Of a stretch of 64,000 nucleotides of DNA, positions 5,344 through 34,347 are shown one piece after another; the first letter of the stretch is position 1; the number at the start of each line of letters is the position of its first letter. The translations under genes and the position numbers were made by a program. The notes under the pieces are model-generated. The model was not told where the DNA came from. It saw only the letters and a program-made list of their open reading frames with translations, and ran no database searches. The stretch comes from an uncultured Trichococcus sp. (GTDB lineage Bacteria; Bacillota; Bacilli; Lactobacillales; Aerococcaceae). Location: positions 248,001 through 312,000 of the forward strand of contig NZ_OY764015.1 of NCBI RefSeq assembly GCF_963667775.1, read 5' to 3'.

Positions 5344-5991
5344 ATGGAGAAAACGACTAAGCACAAATTGCTGTTCATCGGCGACAGCATCACGGACGCC
5401 GGACGCAACCGCAACAATCCTGATTCATTGGGAAAAGGCTACGTAGCTCTGATCGCTAAAGCTCTTGCGGACAGAGGCGATGCCGAACGCTACGAGGTGA
5501 TCAACCGCGGCATCAGCGGCAACCGAATCCTTGATATAGCGGAAAGATGGCACGCCGATTGCATTTCGCTCGAACCCGATGTCGTCACTTTGCTGATAGG
5601 CATTAATGATACGTGGCACAATGTCGGCGATGAGAGTGTGTTCGCTACCGAACAGGGCGCTGAACAGTTCGAAATGCATTACCGCCATCTGCTGGCTTCG
5701 TTGCGGAAAAAATCGAATGCACGGCTCATTCTGATGGAGCCGTTCGTCTTCCCGTATCCGGAAGACCGCAAGACATGGCGGCTTGATTTGGATCCGAAAC
5801 AGGAAATCGTCAAACGCCTGGCCGAAGAATTCGCTGCCGAATGGATCGGGCTGGATGCCTATCTGAATGGAATCGGTGCTGTCGATGGCTATGAAACGTT
5901 ATCCAATGACGGCGTCCACCCGACCAAAAAAGGCCACCAGCTCATCGCTGATGCTTGGCTGAAGCAATTTGATGAAGGCGGGGAAAAGTAG
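5344..5991 (+). CDS. SGNH/GDSL-family hydrolase
   Basis: A 215-residue esterase/lipase of the SGNH fold. All four blocks are visible: GDSIT (nucleophile Ser15), Gly59 in NRGISGN, Asn88 in GINDTW, and the Asp189-x-x-His192 pair in NDGVHPTKKGH. No signal peptide is seen, so it is probably cytoplasmic and acts on small esters or acetylated sugars, like the YxeM/TesA-related cytosolic members. It is translationally close to the glyoxalase gene (10-base gap). The substrate is not predictable. Confidence 0.88.
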   Translation: MEKTTKHKLLFIGDSITDAGRNRNNPDSLGKGYVALIAKALADRGDAERYEVINRGISGNRILDIAERWHADCISLEPDVVTLLIGINDTWHNVGDESVFATEQGAEQFEMHYRHLLASLRKKSNARLILMEPFVFPYPEDRKTWRLDLDPKQEIVKRLAEEFAAEWIGLDAYLNGIGAVDGYETLSNDGVHPTKKGHQLIADAWLKQFDEGGEK

Positions 5992-6030
5992 AGGTCATTG
6001 CGTGAAAAATCCGCATCGTGCCGAAAAGTC

Positions 6031-6059
6031 TTGCTTTCTTGGTTTTGGCATGATAAGAT
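6031..6059 (+). promoter_or_regulatory. promoter of the 6.07-6.29 kb non-coding RNA
   Basis: TTGCTT at 6031-6036 and TAAGAT at 6054-6059 with exactly 17 bases between. It is placed so that transcription would start near 6066, just before the first conserved-looking stem. Confidence 0.6.
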
Positions 6060-6065
6060 GTTTTA

Positions 6066-6289
6066 CATGCGATGAGGCGACGAGCAATCAGGTGGGTTCG
6101 CCCATTCCGCGCAAGCGGCGAAGTGATTGCAAATCAAACGGGACATACGTGCTTGCACAACCACAGGATGTGGATGTTTGATGGTGACTGCTGTGAACAG
6201 TCCCATCCATGGGTTTACCCATGCCGTATCAGAAGAGAGGGTCGGAAAGATGAACACTTAGGTGTTTGCCTTTCCGGCCCTTTCTTTTT
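6066..6289 (+). ncRNA. multi-hairpin structured RNA, class unassigned (raiA-type RNA possible)
   Basis: A stand-alone transcription unit: promoter at 6031-6059, terminator at 6239-6289, no protein-like reading frame. Stems seen directly: GCAATCA (6084-6090) with TGATTGC (6124-6130), enclosing TGGG-UUCG-CCCA (6093-6104) and CCGC-GCAA-GCGG (6107-6118); ATCAAAC (6133-6139) with GTTTGAT (6176-6182), enclosing CCACA-GGA-TGTGG; ATGG+GACTG (6181-6190) with CAGTC+CCAT (6198-6206), sharing two bases with the previous stem; CATGGG-TTTA-CCCATG (6208-6223). UUCG and GNRA tetraloops are typical of functional RNAs. It is not a 6S-like rod and has no SRP, tmRNA or RNase P motif. Size and multi-stem shape recall raiA RNA, but I could not verify this. 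Confidence 0.7.
6239..6289 (+). terminator. terminator of the structured RNA
   Basis: An 11-bp stem (6239-6249 with 6270-6280, one G-U pair) carries an inner AACAC-TTAG-GTGTT hairpin and is followed by TTTCTTTTT. Confidence 0.9.
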
Positions 6290-6656
6290 GTGTTGCTGGG
6301 GAAGGTGGCGGCTGTACCTCCGGCGAAGTGCCGTCTTGTTTTAAGAGCCGGCCGGGAAGGAGTTAAGGGCACCTCACCTCCGATGAGGGCCGCTTCGCCG
6401 GAGGTGGGTTATCCGGATCTATCGGCTTCTCCGGCGAGGAGAAGCTCGTCGGAGAAGAACCCCGAAAATGTGTCCGTTTCTCCGGCCACAGCCGCTTCGC
6501 CGGAGAAACGCCCGGTTTCTTCGGTTTCTTCGGTTTCTCCGGTTTTTCCGGTTTCTCCGGTTGTTCTCCGCCGCGGCTGGCTCATAAATCCGTAAGGGCT
6601 TTATTAGGCGCAACGGCCGCCTTGCGGTATAATCTAAGTAGGAAATTCAGGAAAGA
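6290..6656. repeat. GC-rich CCGGAG/CTCCGG repeat tract with 9-bp tandem repeat
   Basis: A gene-free tract of low complexity. Many copies of CTCCGG, CGCCGGAG and GCTTCGCCGGAG occur in both orientations (for example 6392-6404 and 6494-6505), so it can form several hairpins. At 6514-6558 there are five tandem 9-bp units of the form GGTTTCTTC/GGTTTCTCC. A related tract lies at 30290-30450. A TATAAT at 6628-6633 is the likely -10 for the following lipoprotein gene. Confidence 0.7.
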
Positions 6657-32489: not shown

Positions 32490-34347
32490 GTGCGCCCGGC
32501 ATGGGTGATAACTTGGTGGTGAAAGTCCACTACAGGCTTTGCAGTAGGAACTGTTAGCGAATGACAAGGGTGTCCACCGTGAGGTGGAATCTGAAGGAAG
32601 TCGGACGCAAACACTCGCACTGACGAACAGAAATCTCATACGAGGCTGTATGGAGACGGACGAGCTTGCGTAACAAAGCAAAGTCCAATACTGCACGAAT
32701 CTCCTACAGTAAATGAGGCAGTGACATGAGTGGAAGGTTATCATTCTTACCCGGGGAGGTCTCGCTAGCAGGACTCCCTGTAGTAACAACGAATAGCGAG
32801 AAGTCAGCAGAGGTCATAGTAGCGAAAATGTAGCGAAGGACCGAACAGTATCAATACTTGGAAAGATAGGAGGTTAGGTTTTATGAAGAATGCAGAAAAC
32901 AACCGAAAGGTTGGCAAGCTACAGAAGGATAAGCTGGAAGCGAAAGAATATGTAGATGCGCGGAGTAATAACCTAGGTGAACATATGGAGAAGTATAGTG
33001 AGTCCCTCATGGGTCTCGTTGTAAGTAAAAAGAACCTACTCTCGGCTGCCAAAGCGGTTAGACAAAACAAAGGGGCAGCAGGAGTAGACGGAATGACAGT
33101 GCATGAAGTGGAAGCCCACATTATCGAGTTCTATCCCCAACTAAGGAGAAAACTATTAGACGGGACATACAAGCCACAACCTGTGCGAAGGGTGGAAATC
33201 CCGAAACCAAATGGCGGAATACGGAAATTGGGAATACCAGTAGTGCGGGACCGAGTGGTCCAACAAGCCATTAGGCAGATAATAGAACCCATCATTGACC
33301 CGCATTTCCATCCGAATAGCCACGGTTTCCGAATAGGGAAAAGCAACCATTCTGCACTAAAACAGTGCGTGAATTATTACAAAGAAGGCTATCCCGTAGT
33401 GGTTGATTGCGATTTAAAACAGTGCTTCGACACGTTGAATCATGATAAGTTGATGTACTACCTTGAACAGTATGTACACGACAAAGCCATCCTTAAGATT
33501 ATCCGCAAGTTCCTGATGAGTGGTGTAATAGACCTGTCCGGCGAATTCGTAGAAAGTGAAACAGGCGCACCGCAAGGTGGCGTAATCTCGCCACTTCTCA
33601 GCAATGTTTACTTGCATGAACTGGATAAGGAGTTGGAACAACGAGGGCACCGTTTCGTTCGCTTCGCCGATGACTTCGTAATCTTTGTAAAAACAAAGAG
33701 AGCAGGCGAGCGGGTACTCCAGAGCGTCACTCGCTTTATCGAGAAAGACCTAAGGCTAACCGTCAACAAGGACAAAAGCAAAGTGGGGTCACCTACCCGT
33801 TTAAAGTTCTTGGGTTGTCTGATAACTACTGTGAATGGGGTCTGTCGCTACCGACCGACCAATGCCGCCAAGAAGAAATTAGTCAACAAATTGAGACACT
33901 TGACGAAACGAAACCGTCCCGGAGATTTCCGTCAAATTTCTAACGAAATCAACAGTGTCACAAGAGGATGGATCAACTACTTCGGTTTAGGGTTCATTAA
34001 AACCTTTATCCGAAGGATTGAACAATGGCTGCATCGCAGAATCAGACAACTTATTCTTAAACGATGGAAAAGCTCACGTACGAAGATTGACAGACTATCC
34101 AAGCTTGGTCTCGATAAAGATAGCGCAAAGCGCGTCGGATTCTCCAGAAAGAAACACTGGAGGCTCTCCAAAACGCCTGAAGTTCATCGGGCACTTACGA
34201 CGAAAAGACTCCACCATTGGGGCTTAATTTCATTAAGCCACCTGGCAGAGTCTGCTTACTCAAGATACTGAACCGCCGTGTACGGAACCGTACGCACGGT
34301 GGTGTGAGAGGTCGGTAGATGAACTAATCATCTACCTCCTACTCGAT
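32490..34347 (+). mobile_element. class C (IIC) group II intron
   Basis: The 5' end GTGCGCCCGGCATGGGTG is the usual IIC start. Domain V is readable near 34272-34307 (CCGCCGTGTACGG..CCGTACGCACGGTGG), and domain VI follows as a GTAGATG/CATCTAC stem (34315-34335) ending near CTACTCGAT. The reverse transcriptase is encoded in domain IV. Insertion directly after a rho-independent terminator stem is the hallmark targeting mode of class C introns. The exact 3' boundary is my estimate, accurate to a few bases. The element looks intact. Confidence 0.9.
32883..34271 (+). CDS. ltrA: group II intron reverse transcriptase/maturase
   Basis: A 462-residue intron-encoded protein that splices the intron and copies it by target-primed reverse transcription. 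RT blocks are present: GAAGVDGMTVHE, IPKPNGGIRKLGIPVVRDRVVQQAI, HPNSHGFRIGKSNHSAL, DLKQCFDTLNHDKLM, GAPQGGVISPLLSNVYLHELD and the catalytic RFADDFVIF. The box is Phe261-Ala-Asp263-Asp264 in place of the common YADD. The C-terminal maturase (domain X) includes RGWINYFGLGF. No H-N-H endonuclease domain is present, as expected for class C. ATG 32883 follows AGGAGG. Confidence 0.95.
   Translation: MKNAENNRKVGKLQKDKLEAKEYVDARSNNLGEHMEKYSESLMGLVVSKKNLLSAAKAVRQNKGAAGVDGMTVHEVEAHIIEFYPQLRRKLLDGTYKPQPVRRVEIPKPNGGIRKLGIPVVRDRVVQQAIRQIIEPIIDPHFHPNSHGFRIGKSNHSALKQCVNYYKEGYPVVVDCDLKQCFDTLNHDKLMYYLEQYVHDKAILKIIRKFLMSGVIDLSGEFVESETGAPQGGVISPLLSNVYLHELDKELEQRGHRFVRFADDFVIFVKTKRAGERVLQSVTRFIEKDLRLTVNKDKSKVGSPTRLKFLGCLITTVNGVCRYRPTNAAKKKLVNKLRHLTKRNRPGDFRQISNEINSVTRGWINYFGLGFIKTFIRRIEQWLHRRIRQLILKRWKSSRTKIDRLSKLGLDKDSAKRVGFSRKKHWRLSKTPEVHRALTTKRLHHWGLISLSHLAESAYSRY

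Follow-up and report, generated by a model that had tools for sequence, protein, structure and literature searches.

Ref68, a conserved structured RNA of the Lactobacillales, is complementary to and co-varies with 23S rRNA beside the peptidyl transferase centre

Within the window, by which we mean the whole stretch of 64,000 nucleotides from an uncultured Trichococcus sp. that was analysed, a small RNA is encoded on the forward strand downstream of an SGNH gene. The features of this locus, from the promoter to the terminator, are the following:

6031-6059, + strand: promoter, read from the sequence, with the -35 box TTGCTT (6031-6036), a 17-nt spacer and the -10 box TAAGAT (6054-6059)
6068-6080, + strand: 5' antisense element UGCGAUGAGGCGA, complementary to 23S rRNA UCGGCUCAUCGCA (E. 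coli about 2506-2518)
6084-6130, + strand: P1 domain, from the RF02840 alignment, with P1 (6084-6090 paired to 6124-6130), a UUCG hairpin (6091-6106) and a GCAA hairpin (6107-6118)
6138-6227, + strand: core, from model R2 and covariation, with the closing helix P2 (6138-6141 paired to 6224-6227) around P3, P4 and P5
6142-6178, + strand: three-way unit of P3 (6142-6146 paired to 6174-6178) with the hairpins P3a (6149-6158) and P3b (6161-6173, GGA loop)
6180-6207, + strand: P4 hairpin with the loop UGUGAAC (6192-6198), complementary to the 23S helix-89 loop GUUCACA
6208-6223, + strand: P5 hairpin, from covariation and model R2, absent from the Rfam model
6234-6289, + strand: intrinsic terminator, from fold and sequence

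An initial annotation had described the locus as a free-standing, conserved and densely structured RNA that has a promoter and a terminator of its own, and it was right: both promoter boxes are present at the spacing of 17 nt that it gave, the terminator it called strong is in place, and all of the stems and the UUCG and GCAA tetraloops that it listed are found in the sequence. Its denial of a protein-like frame probably stands as well; ORFs of 64-90 codons overlap the locus, and the length variation of the homologues and their paired changes, both unlike coding sequence, suggest that the RNA is non-coding. The conserved 5' end starts at 6068, and on reading the homologues a -10-like box is kept a few nucleotides upstream of it; the RNA is expected to start a few nucleotides upstream of 6068. 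The fold of 6050-6300, a stretch that takes in the terminator as the source of much of the stability excess, reaches -97.4 kcal/mol against -75.8 +/- 4.4 for shuffles (z -4.95, equalled by 0 of 200). The comparative evidence for the RNA is stronger than this folding-energy evidence, and a conserved structured RNA at the locus is confirmed as real. Directly past the terminator, at 6300-6600, the window is GC-rich with many CTCCGG and TTCTCCGG repeats; at 32573-34347 it holds a group II intron, recognised by Rfam as D1-D4 (RF02001, RF01998) and the 3' catalytic domain (RF00029).

The RNA is a member of the Rfam family RF02840 (Ref68, "Lacto-3", Enterococcus sRNA 68): positions 6068-6201 match the model from end to end (1-124 of 124) at 65 bits, against a gathering cut-off of 44, with an E-value of 1.7e-11. 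The scan with all Rfam models that had been proposed as a check thus returns a known family, in keeping with the conserved RNA that was postulated; this family is Ref68, and raiA, which the annotation had guessed, is absent. Its other option, an undescribed class, falls away with an RNA that is already catalogued, whereas its statement that the RNA is not 6S, SRP, tmRNA or RNase P is borne out, none of these models matching 5980-6350 at E up to 5. The only other Rfam match in that interval and at that threshold is the microRNA model mir-3156, on the terminator. The 124-nt Rfam model shares with the window RNA the 5' element, P1, P3 and P4; it ends at 6201 and is without the closing helix P2, P5 or any target, while the window RNA extends beyond this end, via the closing helix and the fifth hairpin, to about 6229. 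The family was reportedly named by Fouquier d'Herouel in 2011. No function or target of Ref68 or Lacto-3 was found in print in a limited, open-licence literature, nor was a description of its 3' half and the binding partner thereof; the enterococcal sRNA papers use another sRNA numbering in the portions that were available (PMC3166299, PMC7724050, PMC10117718).

Overall, Ref68 consists of an unpaired 5' end, the P1 domain, which is reduced to a single hairpin in many homologues, and a junction closed by P2 that contains P3 (with P3a and P3b), P4 and P5. Homologues and covariation, which the initial annotation had proposed to look for, are both found. A first model of the 3' core, built from 11 sequences of family f3, yields 37 matches at E up to 1 in 80 sequence sources (338 kb), at Ref68 loci. 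In the alignment of these 37 sequences, which is fitted to the structure and leans to the model, 29 of 30 pairs are backed by changes on both sides, 93.3% of the cells pair, and the covariation score is 0.756 against 0.249 for shuffles (0 of 500); in a MAFFT alignment of the 11 sequences, onto which the structure was fitted by eye, the score is 0.397 against 0.172 for the controls (0 of 500). A second model (R2), made from the 37 matches and trained on no sequence from the genus of the window, recognises window positions 6136-6229 at 47.3 bits (E 4e-8); it matches 26 of 46 sources, mostly missing the Streptococcus-like and other diverged copies. The closing helix P2 and the hairpin P5 are additions to the Rfam picture of Ref68. 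Two variants were seen on the side: the Streptococcus-like members of family f4 (L104-L121) have a reduced form of Ref68 that keeps a single P1 hairpin, reach RF02840 scores of 24-33 bits and in many cases carry a Shine-Dalgarno-like AAGGAGGU as the 5' strand of P3; L017, L081, L082, L088, L099 and L112 (f9; g37, g60, g72) have an apparent extra conserved 3' stretch, GACTAAC ... TGCCAA, past P4.

Ref68 is present in 7 of 9 sampled families of the Lactobacillales, normally as one copy per genome. RF02840 matches 29 of 60 relatives; the control genome of Lactococcus lactis has a match that stays under the gathering cut-off. Of 395 genomes sampled from the order, 230 in 51 of 80 genera have a match at E up to 0.001 and 123 have one above the gathering cut-off, with a single match in every genome listed. 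With a pattern that joins the 5' motif to the P4 loop, matches are found in 173 of 295 genomes, from 48 of 72 genera; its reversed control has matches in three of the genomes listed. The pattern recovers L404, L405 and the homologues of genus g29, all of which are missed by RF02840 and by R2, and the RF02840 family model needs rebuilding. Families f7 and f8 appear to be without Ref68: neither contributes to the RF02840 matches among the 395 genomes, and the pattern search gives none in f8 and, in f7, one match (G200) that looks like chance. Candidate matches listed for a related pattern fall in named records of, among others, Streptococcus, Lactococcus, Companilactobacillus, Pediococcus, Ligilactobacillus, Apilactobacillus, Marinilactibacillus, Alloiococcus, Aerococcus and Granulicatella; apparent chance matches in unrelated phyla are listed as well. 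Over the class, RF02840 matches 23 of 398 genomes at E up to 0.01, 22 of them within the order; the one outside, G615, is marginal (E 0.0099). Model R2 matches 4 of the 398 and misses the window itself, so that its negatives carry no weight. The gene neighbours of Ref68 differ among families (41 loci, including the window), which points to an RNA that works in trans or on its own; an upstream SGNH gene is shared by the window and 3 of the 40 other loci. Synteny was considered as a functional clue and rejected, since other families have other neighbours.

Two elements of Ref68 are unpaired and near-invariant, the 5' end UGCGAYGRGNYGA and the P4 loop UGUGRA, and both are antisense to 23S rRNA next to the peptidyl transferase centre (for 2474, 2513 and the other 23S positions we give what we take to be the E. 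coli numbers, counted by hand). The 5' end UGCGAUGAGUCGA fits 23S at about 2506-2518. Among six motif strings compared with the genome's own 16S and 23S, the 5' consensus alone stood out: this 13-mer is complementary to UCGGCUCAUCGCA over 13 of 13 nt, with 12 Watson-Crick pairs and one G-U, and a match as good as that of the consensus is reached by 1 of 3000 shuffles and by 2 of 3000 13-mers of the window. The window's own copy forms 9 bp, then a G-G mismatch at nt 10 and 3 bp more; its unbroken match scores 23, near the mean of 20.6 for the shuffled consensus. Across 77 cognate pairs the duplexes at this first site average -21.6 kcal/mol, and versions with C6 would lose a computed 5.7 kcal/mol on an A-type target.

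At this site, A2513 occurs with U6 of Ref68 (49 of 49), and G2513 with C6 (16) or in a G-U pair (17); the genomes with C6 all have G2513 (16 of 16), and C6 never occurs with A2513. The switch is seen within a single genus, g12, where G362 has A/U and G023, G243 and G274 have G/C. On the 23S tree, position 2513 changes 4 times and nt 6 changes 6 times; nt 6 differs in 5 independent pairs, counted without G362 of g12, and in about 2 of these 2513 differs as well, in the fitting direction, the rest being the same there. The pairing rule of the site is satisfied by 51 of the 914 variable 23S columns. Taken alone, the covariation at the first site is weak as judged from these sequences, and the weight of the site lies in the 13-nt match and in the switch within g12.

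The 5' element has complements elsewhere too. A search for the 13-nt complement that tolerates G-U gives 47 matches in six genomes, and 30 of the loci were read: 15 are 23S, 2 are the other strand of Ref68 itself and 13 are scattered elsewhere. One perfect complement (L356) lies within an ORF of the window's genome, and two non-23S complements, L333 (G000:C1:55445) and L341 (G054:C6:72108), are apparently homologous; G037 shows no 23S site, its rRNA being perhaps missing or masked. With 11 nt, three genomes give 11 matches, including a homologous pair antisense to a LevR-like gene. As for the rRNA copies of G000, the Rfam 23S search finds, outside the window (G000:C1, for example 502477-504653), four whole copies and three fragmented ones; since the H89-H90 segment occurs eight times in the genome and the stretch at 504271 shares 99.8% identity with a whole 23S copy over 1896 bases, the fragmented copies are perhaps an artefact of the search.

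The P4 loop (UGUGRA) fits the loop of helix 89, at 23S positions of about 2473-2478, the 7-nt match of the window lying at about 2472-2478. By itself this 7-bp match (GUUCACA) is at chance level, and it is thus covariation that supports the site: U2474 occurs with A in the loop (33) and C2474 with G (49), in 82 of 82 genomes from 45 genera and 7 families, with a switch inside genus g68 (G253 versus G363 and G389). The loop base was picked by motif and structure, without use of 23S. A cruder hairpin rule, which finds at least 3 contiguous stem pairs in 64 of 77 RNAs, chooses another GTGR motif in 5 of the 77, and these then disagree with 23S; structure alignments made without 23S agree with it in 8 of 9, 22 of 25 and 17 of 17 cases, the misses being, on reading, shifts within the loop. 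A pairing of the P3b loop with 23S UCCUG was considered as well; it fits CAGGA loops, fails with CCGUA and CCGCA loops, and is not claimed. A CsrA-like nature of the GGA loops was a further idea considered.

On the 23S tree, 2474 and the P4 loop each change 7 times, and in 7 of 7 independent pairs they do so together, with none against (sign test, p 0.0156). The tree is of a quick kind, with 77 rows (75 of them with Ref68) and 2939 columns, which include both tested sites; four rows are under half filled. Among the 914 variable 23S columns, 2474 is the sole one with zero discordance (0 of 77), the next-best columns standing at 6/51, 6/50 and 12/71; of 5000 simulated neutral two-state traits none reaches the concordance of 2474, the best attaining 67 of 77.

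Both 23S sites were read in 39 of 47 and in 47 of 80 genomes and compared with the Ref68 of the same genome where present; 23S was not found in 6 of the 47 and 33 of the 80. In the set of 47, 41 genomes have 23S and 39 were read, two rows of f8 being unlisted, and these 39 include two f7 genomes without Ref68. One pattern match, G034/L300, was left out: it has TGCGACGGGTCGA with A in 23S and a loop G with T in 23S, and would oppose both sites. It is taken as a chance match because the sequence looks coding, shows neither promoter nor hairpins on reading, and lies in a genome without an RF02840 match; R2 does not match it either, which is non-informative, several true homologues being likewise unmatched. 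G220, whose motif begins TGTGAT, stands outside the 82 and fits on hand reading (loop UGUGAAC, 23S U), and the rows of G287 and G257 were corrected from the homologue sequences. G000 and G362 have two TGTG motifs each, for which the P4 hairpin was taken by structure; both are left out of the tree test and included in the 914-column scan and the 82-genome count. What the computation establishes is a conserved structured RNA, its complementarity to 23S and its co-evolution with it. The pairing of Ref68 with 23S is strongly supported by these sequences and very probably real.

Ref68 would pair with 23S twice, on either side of the 3' strand of helix 89 and of the catalytic-centre loop: the 5' end with the strand that starts helix 90 (about 2506-2518), and the P4 loop, in a kissing contact, with the loop of helix 89 (about 2473-2478). 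The two elements are antiparallel to and colinear with the rRNA sites, so that both could be clamped by a single Ref68 molecule. Helix 90 of the mature ribosome contains the 2507-2518 strand in paired form, which makes an immature or unfolded 50S subunit the likelier target. The reading that we favour, at a probability of roughly 0.6, is that Ref68 acts in trans, pairing with 23S and serving as an assembly chaperone or placeholder on the immature 50S subunit; it would keep H89-H90 open up to the point at which the catalytic centre can fold, and would then be displaced. From the pairing we infer direct binding in the cell, the immature 50S subunit as the partner, and the chaperoning purpose.

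As expected of a chaperone RNA, Ref68 has antisense elements to large-subunit rRNA that are kept by co-evolution. Box C/D snoRNAs are defined by box C (RUGAUGA) and box D (CUGA) in a terminal kink-turn; RUGAUGA is absent on reading 6060-6230, and snoRNA families are absent from the Rfam matches of the window and of 5980-6350 at E up to 5. The nearest likeness is to yeast snR190, which pairs with domain V of 25S rRNA, helps to structure the catalytic centre and, in the part of the account available, is a chaperone and not a methylation guide (PMC8536666). Both are small structured RNAs with two antisense elements to large-subunit rRNA, one of those of snR190 lying in domain V at the catalytic centre (PMC8536666). 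The sites of snR190 are H73 and domain I, whereas those of Ref68 are in H89 and H90. Ref68 further differs from snR190 in that it is bacterial, that no box C/D is found in it and that its role is a putative one. Among proteins, RbgA of Bacillus subtilis is proposed to act ahead of the entry of L16 and other late proteins; assembly GTPases of this type act at the late-50S stage that is proposed here for Ref68, but they are proteins, and the available part of the source describes no RNA partner (PMC4199504). Independently transcribed pneumococcal sRNAs tend toward light sedimentation fractions according to the sections available of a paper that does not cover Ref68 (PMC7196914), a tendency that counts against the chaperone reading, even though Ref68 is not its subject.

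The same evidence for pairing with 23S would also serve an inhibitor or storage factor, with Ref68 invading H89/H90 of inactive or stressed 50S subunits and keeping the catalytic centre shut. The paired strand borders U2504-U2506, which we take to be catalytic-centre positions adjoining the first site; invasion of a finished subunit would be hard, however, as H90 is double-stranded and buried in the mature 50S, and we regard this alternative as unlikely. Distinctly unlikely, too, is a sensor of rRNA, in which free, unassembled or damaged 23S would titrate a Ref68 that otherwise regulates mRNAs or a protein: the conserved core with its further GGA-type loop (P3b) suggests a second partner, and the 5' end has its scattered complements outside 23S, including the homologous pair in G000 and G054 (L333, L341), but no conserved mRNA target is established, the homologous pair of the 11-nt search being antisense to the LevR-like gene. 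The segment near 2479-2505 of 23S is heavily modified and is flanked by the two antisense elements, an arrangement that would suit a guide RNA for a modification enzyme acting there; to our knowledge, however, bacteria have no guide-RNP protein, their modification enzymes acting alone, and the snoRNA families of Rfam are unmatched, which leaves this idea very improbable.

Conserved unpaired 5' ends such as that of Ref68 are typical of sRNA seeds, the match of the P4 loop is at chance level when taken alone, and the 5' end has other complements; an ordinary mRNA-pairing sRNA with a coincidental match to 23S is nonetheless hard to credit, given a covariation at 2474 that is perfect, survives the tree test and is unique among 914 columns, and given a second compatible 23S site 39 nt away. 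As to a raiA-type RNA, the guess made originally for this locus, its probability is close to nil. RaiA RNA is a free-standing structured RNA of Gram-positive bacteria, and Ref68 resembles it in this, in its similar size and in its multi-stem look only; the interval 5980-6350 has no match to the raiA model at E up to 5, whereas it matches Ref68 at 65 bits.

Bacterial ribosome assembly is described in terms of rRNA and proteins. The odds look about even that, across much of a bacterial order, a trans-acting RNA is dedicated to clamping H89-H90 of 23S as a placeholder while the peptidyl transferase centre matures; Ref68 would then be an independently evolved bacterial counterpart of the snoRNA chaperones, hidden in Rfam as a functionless sRNA. 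If true, an RNA player would be added to bacterial ribosome assembly, and this at the catalytic centre; an orphan Rfam family would become a testable system, and the folding of H89-H90 would gain a new handle. Novelty for bacteria would lie in the kind of activity, the RNA itself being already catalogued, and the co-variation suggests that a helper RNA may act on ribosomes in bacteria as well.
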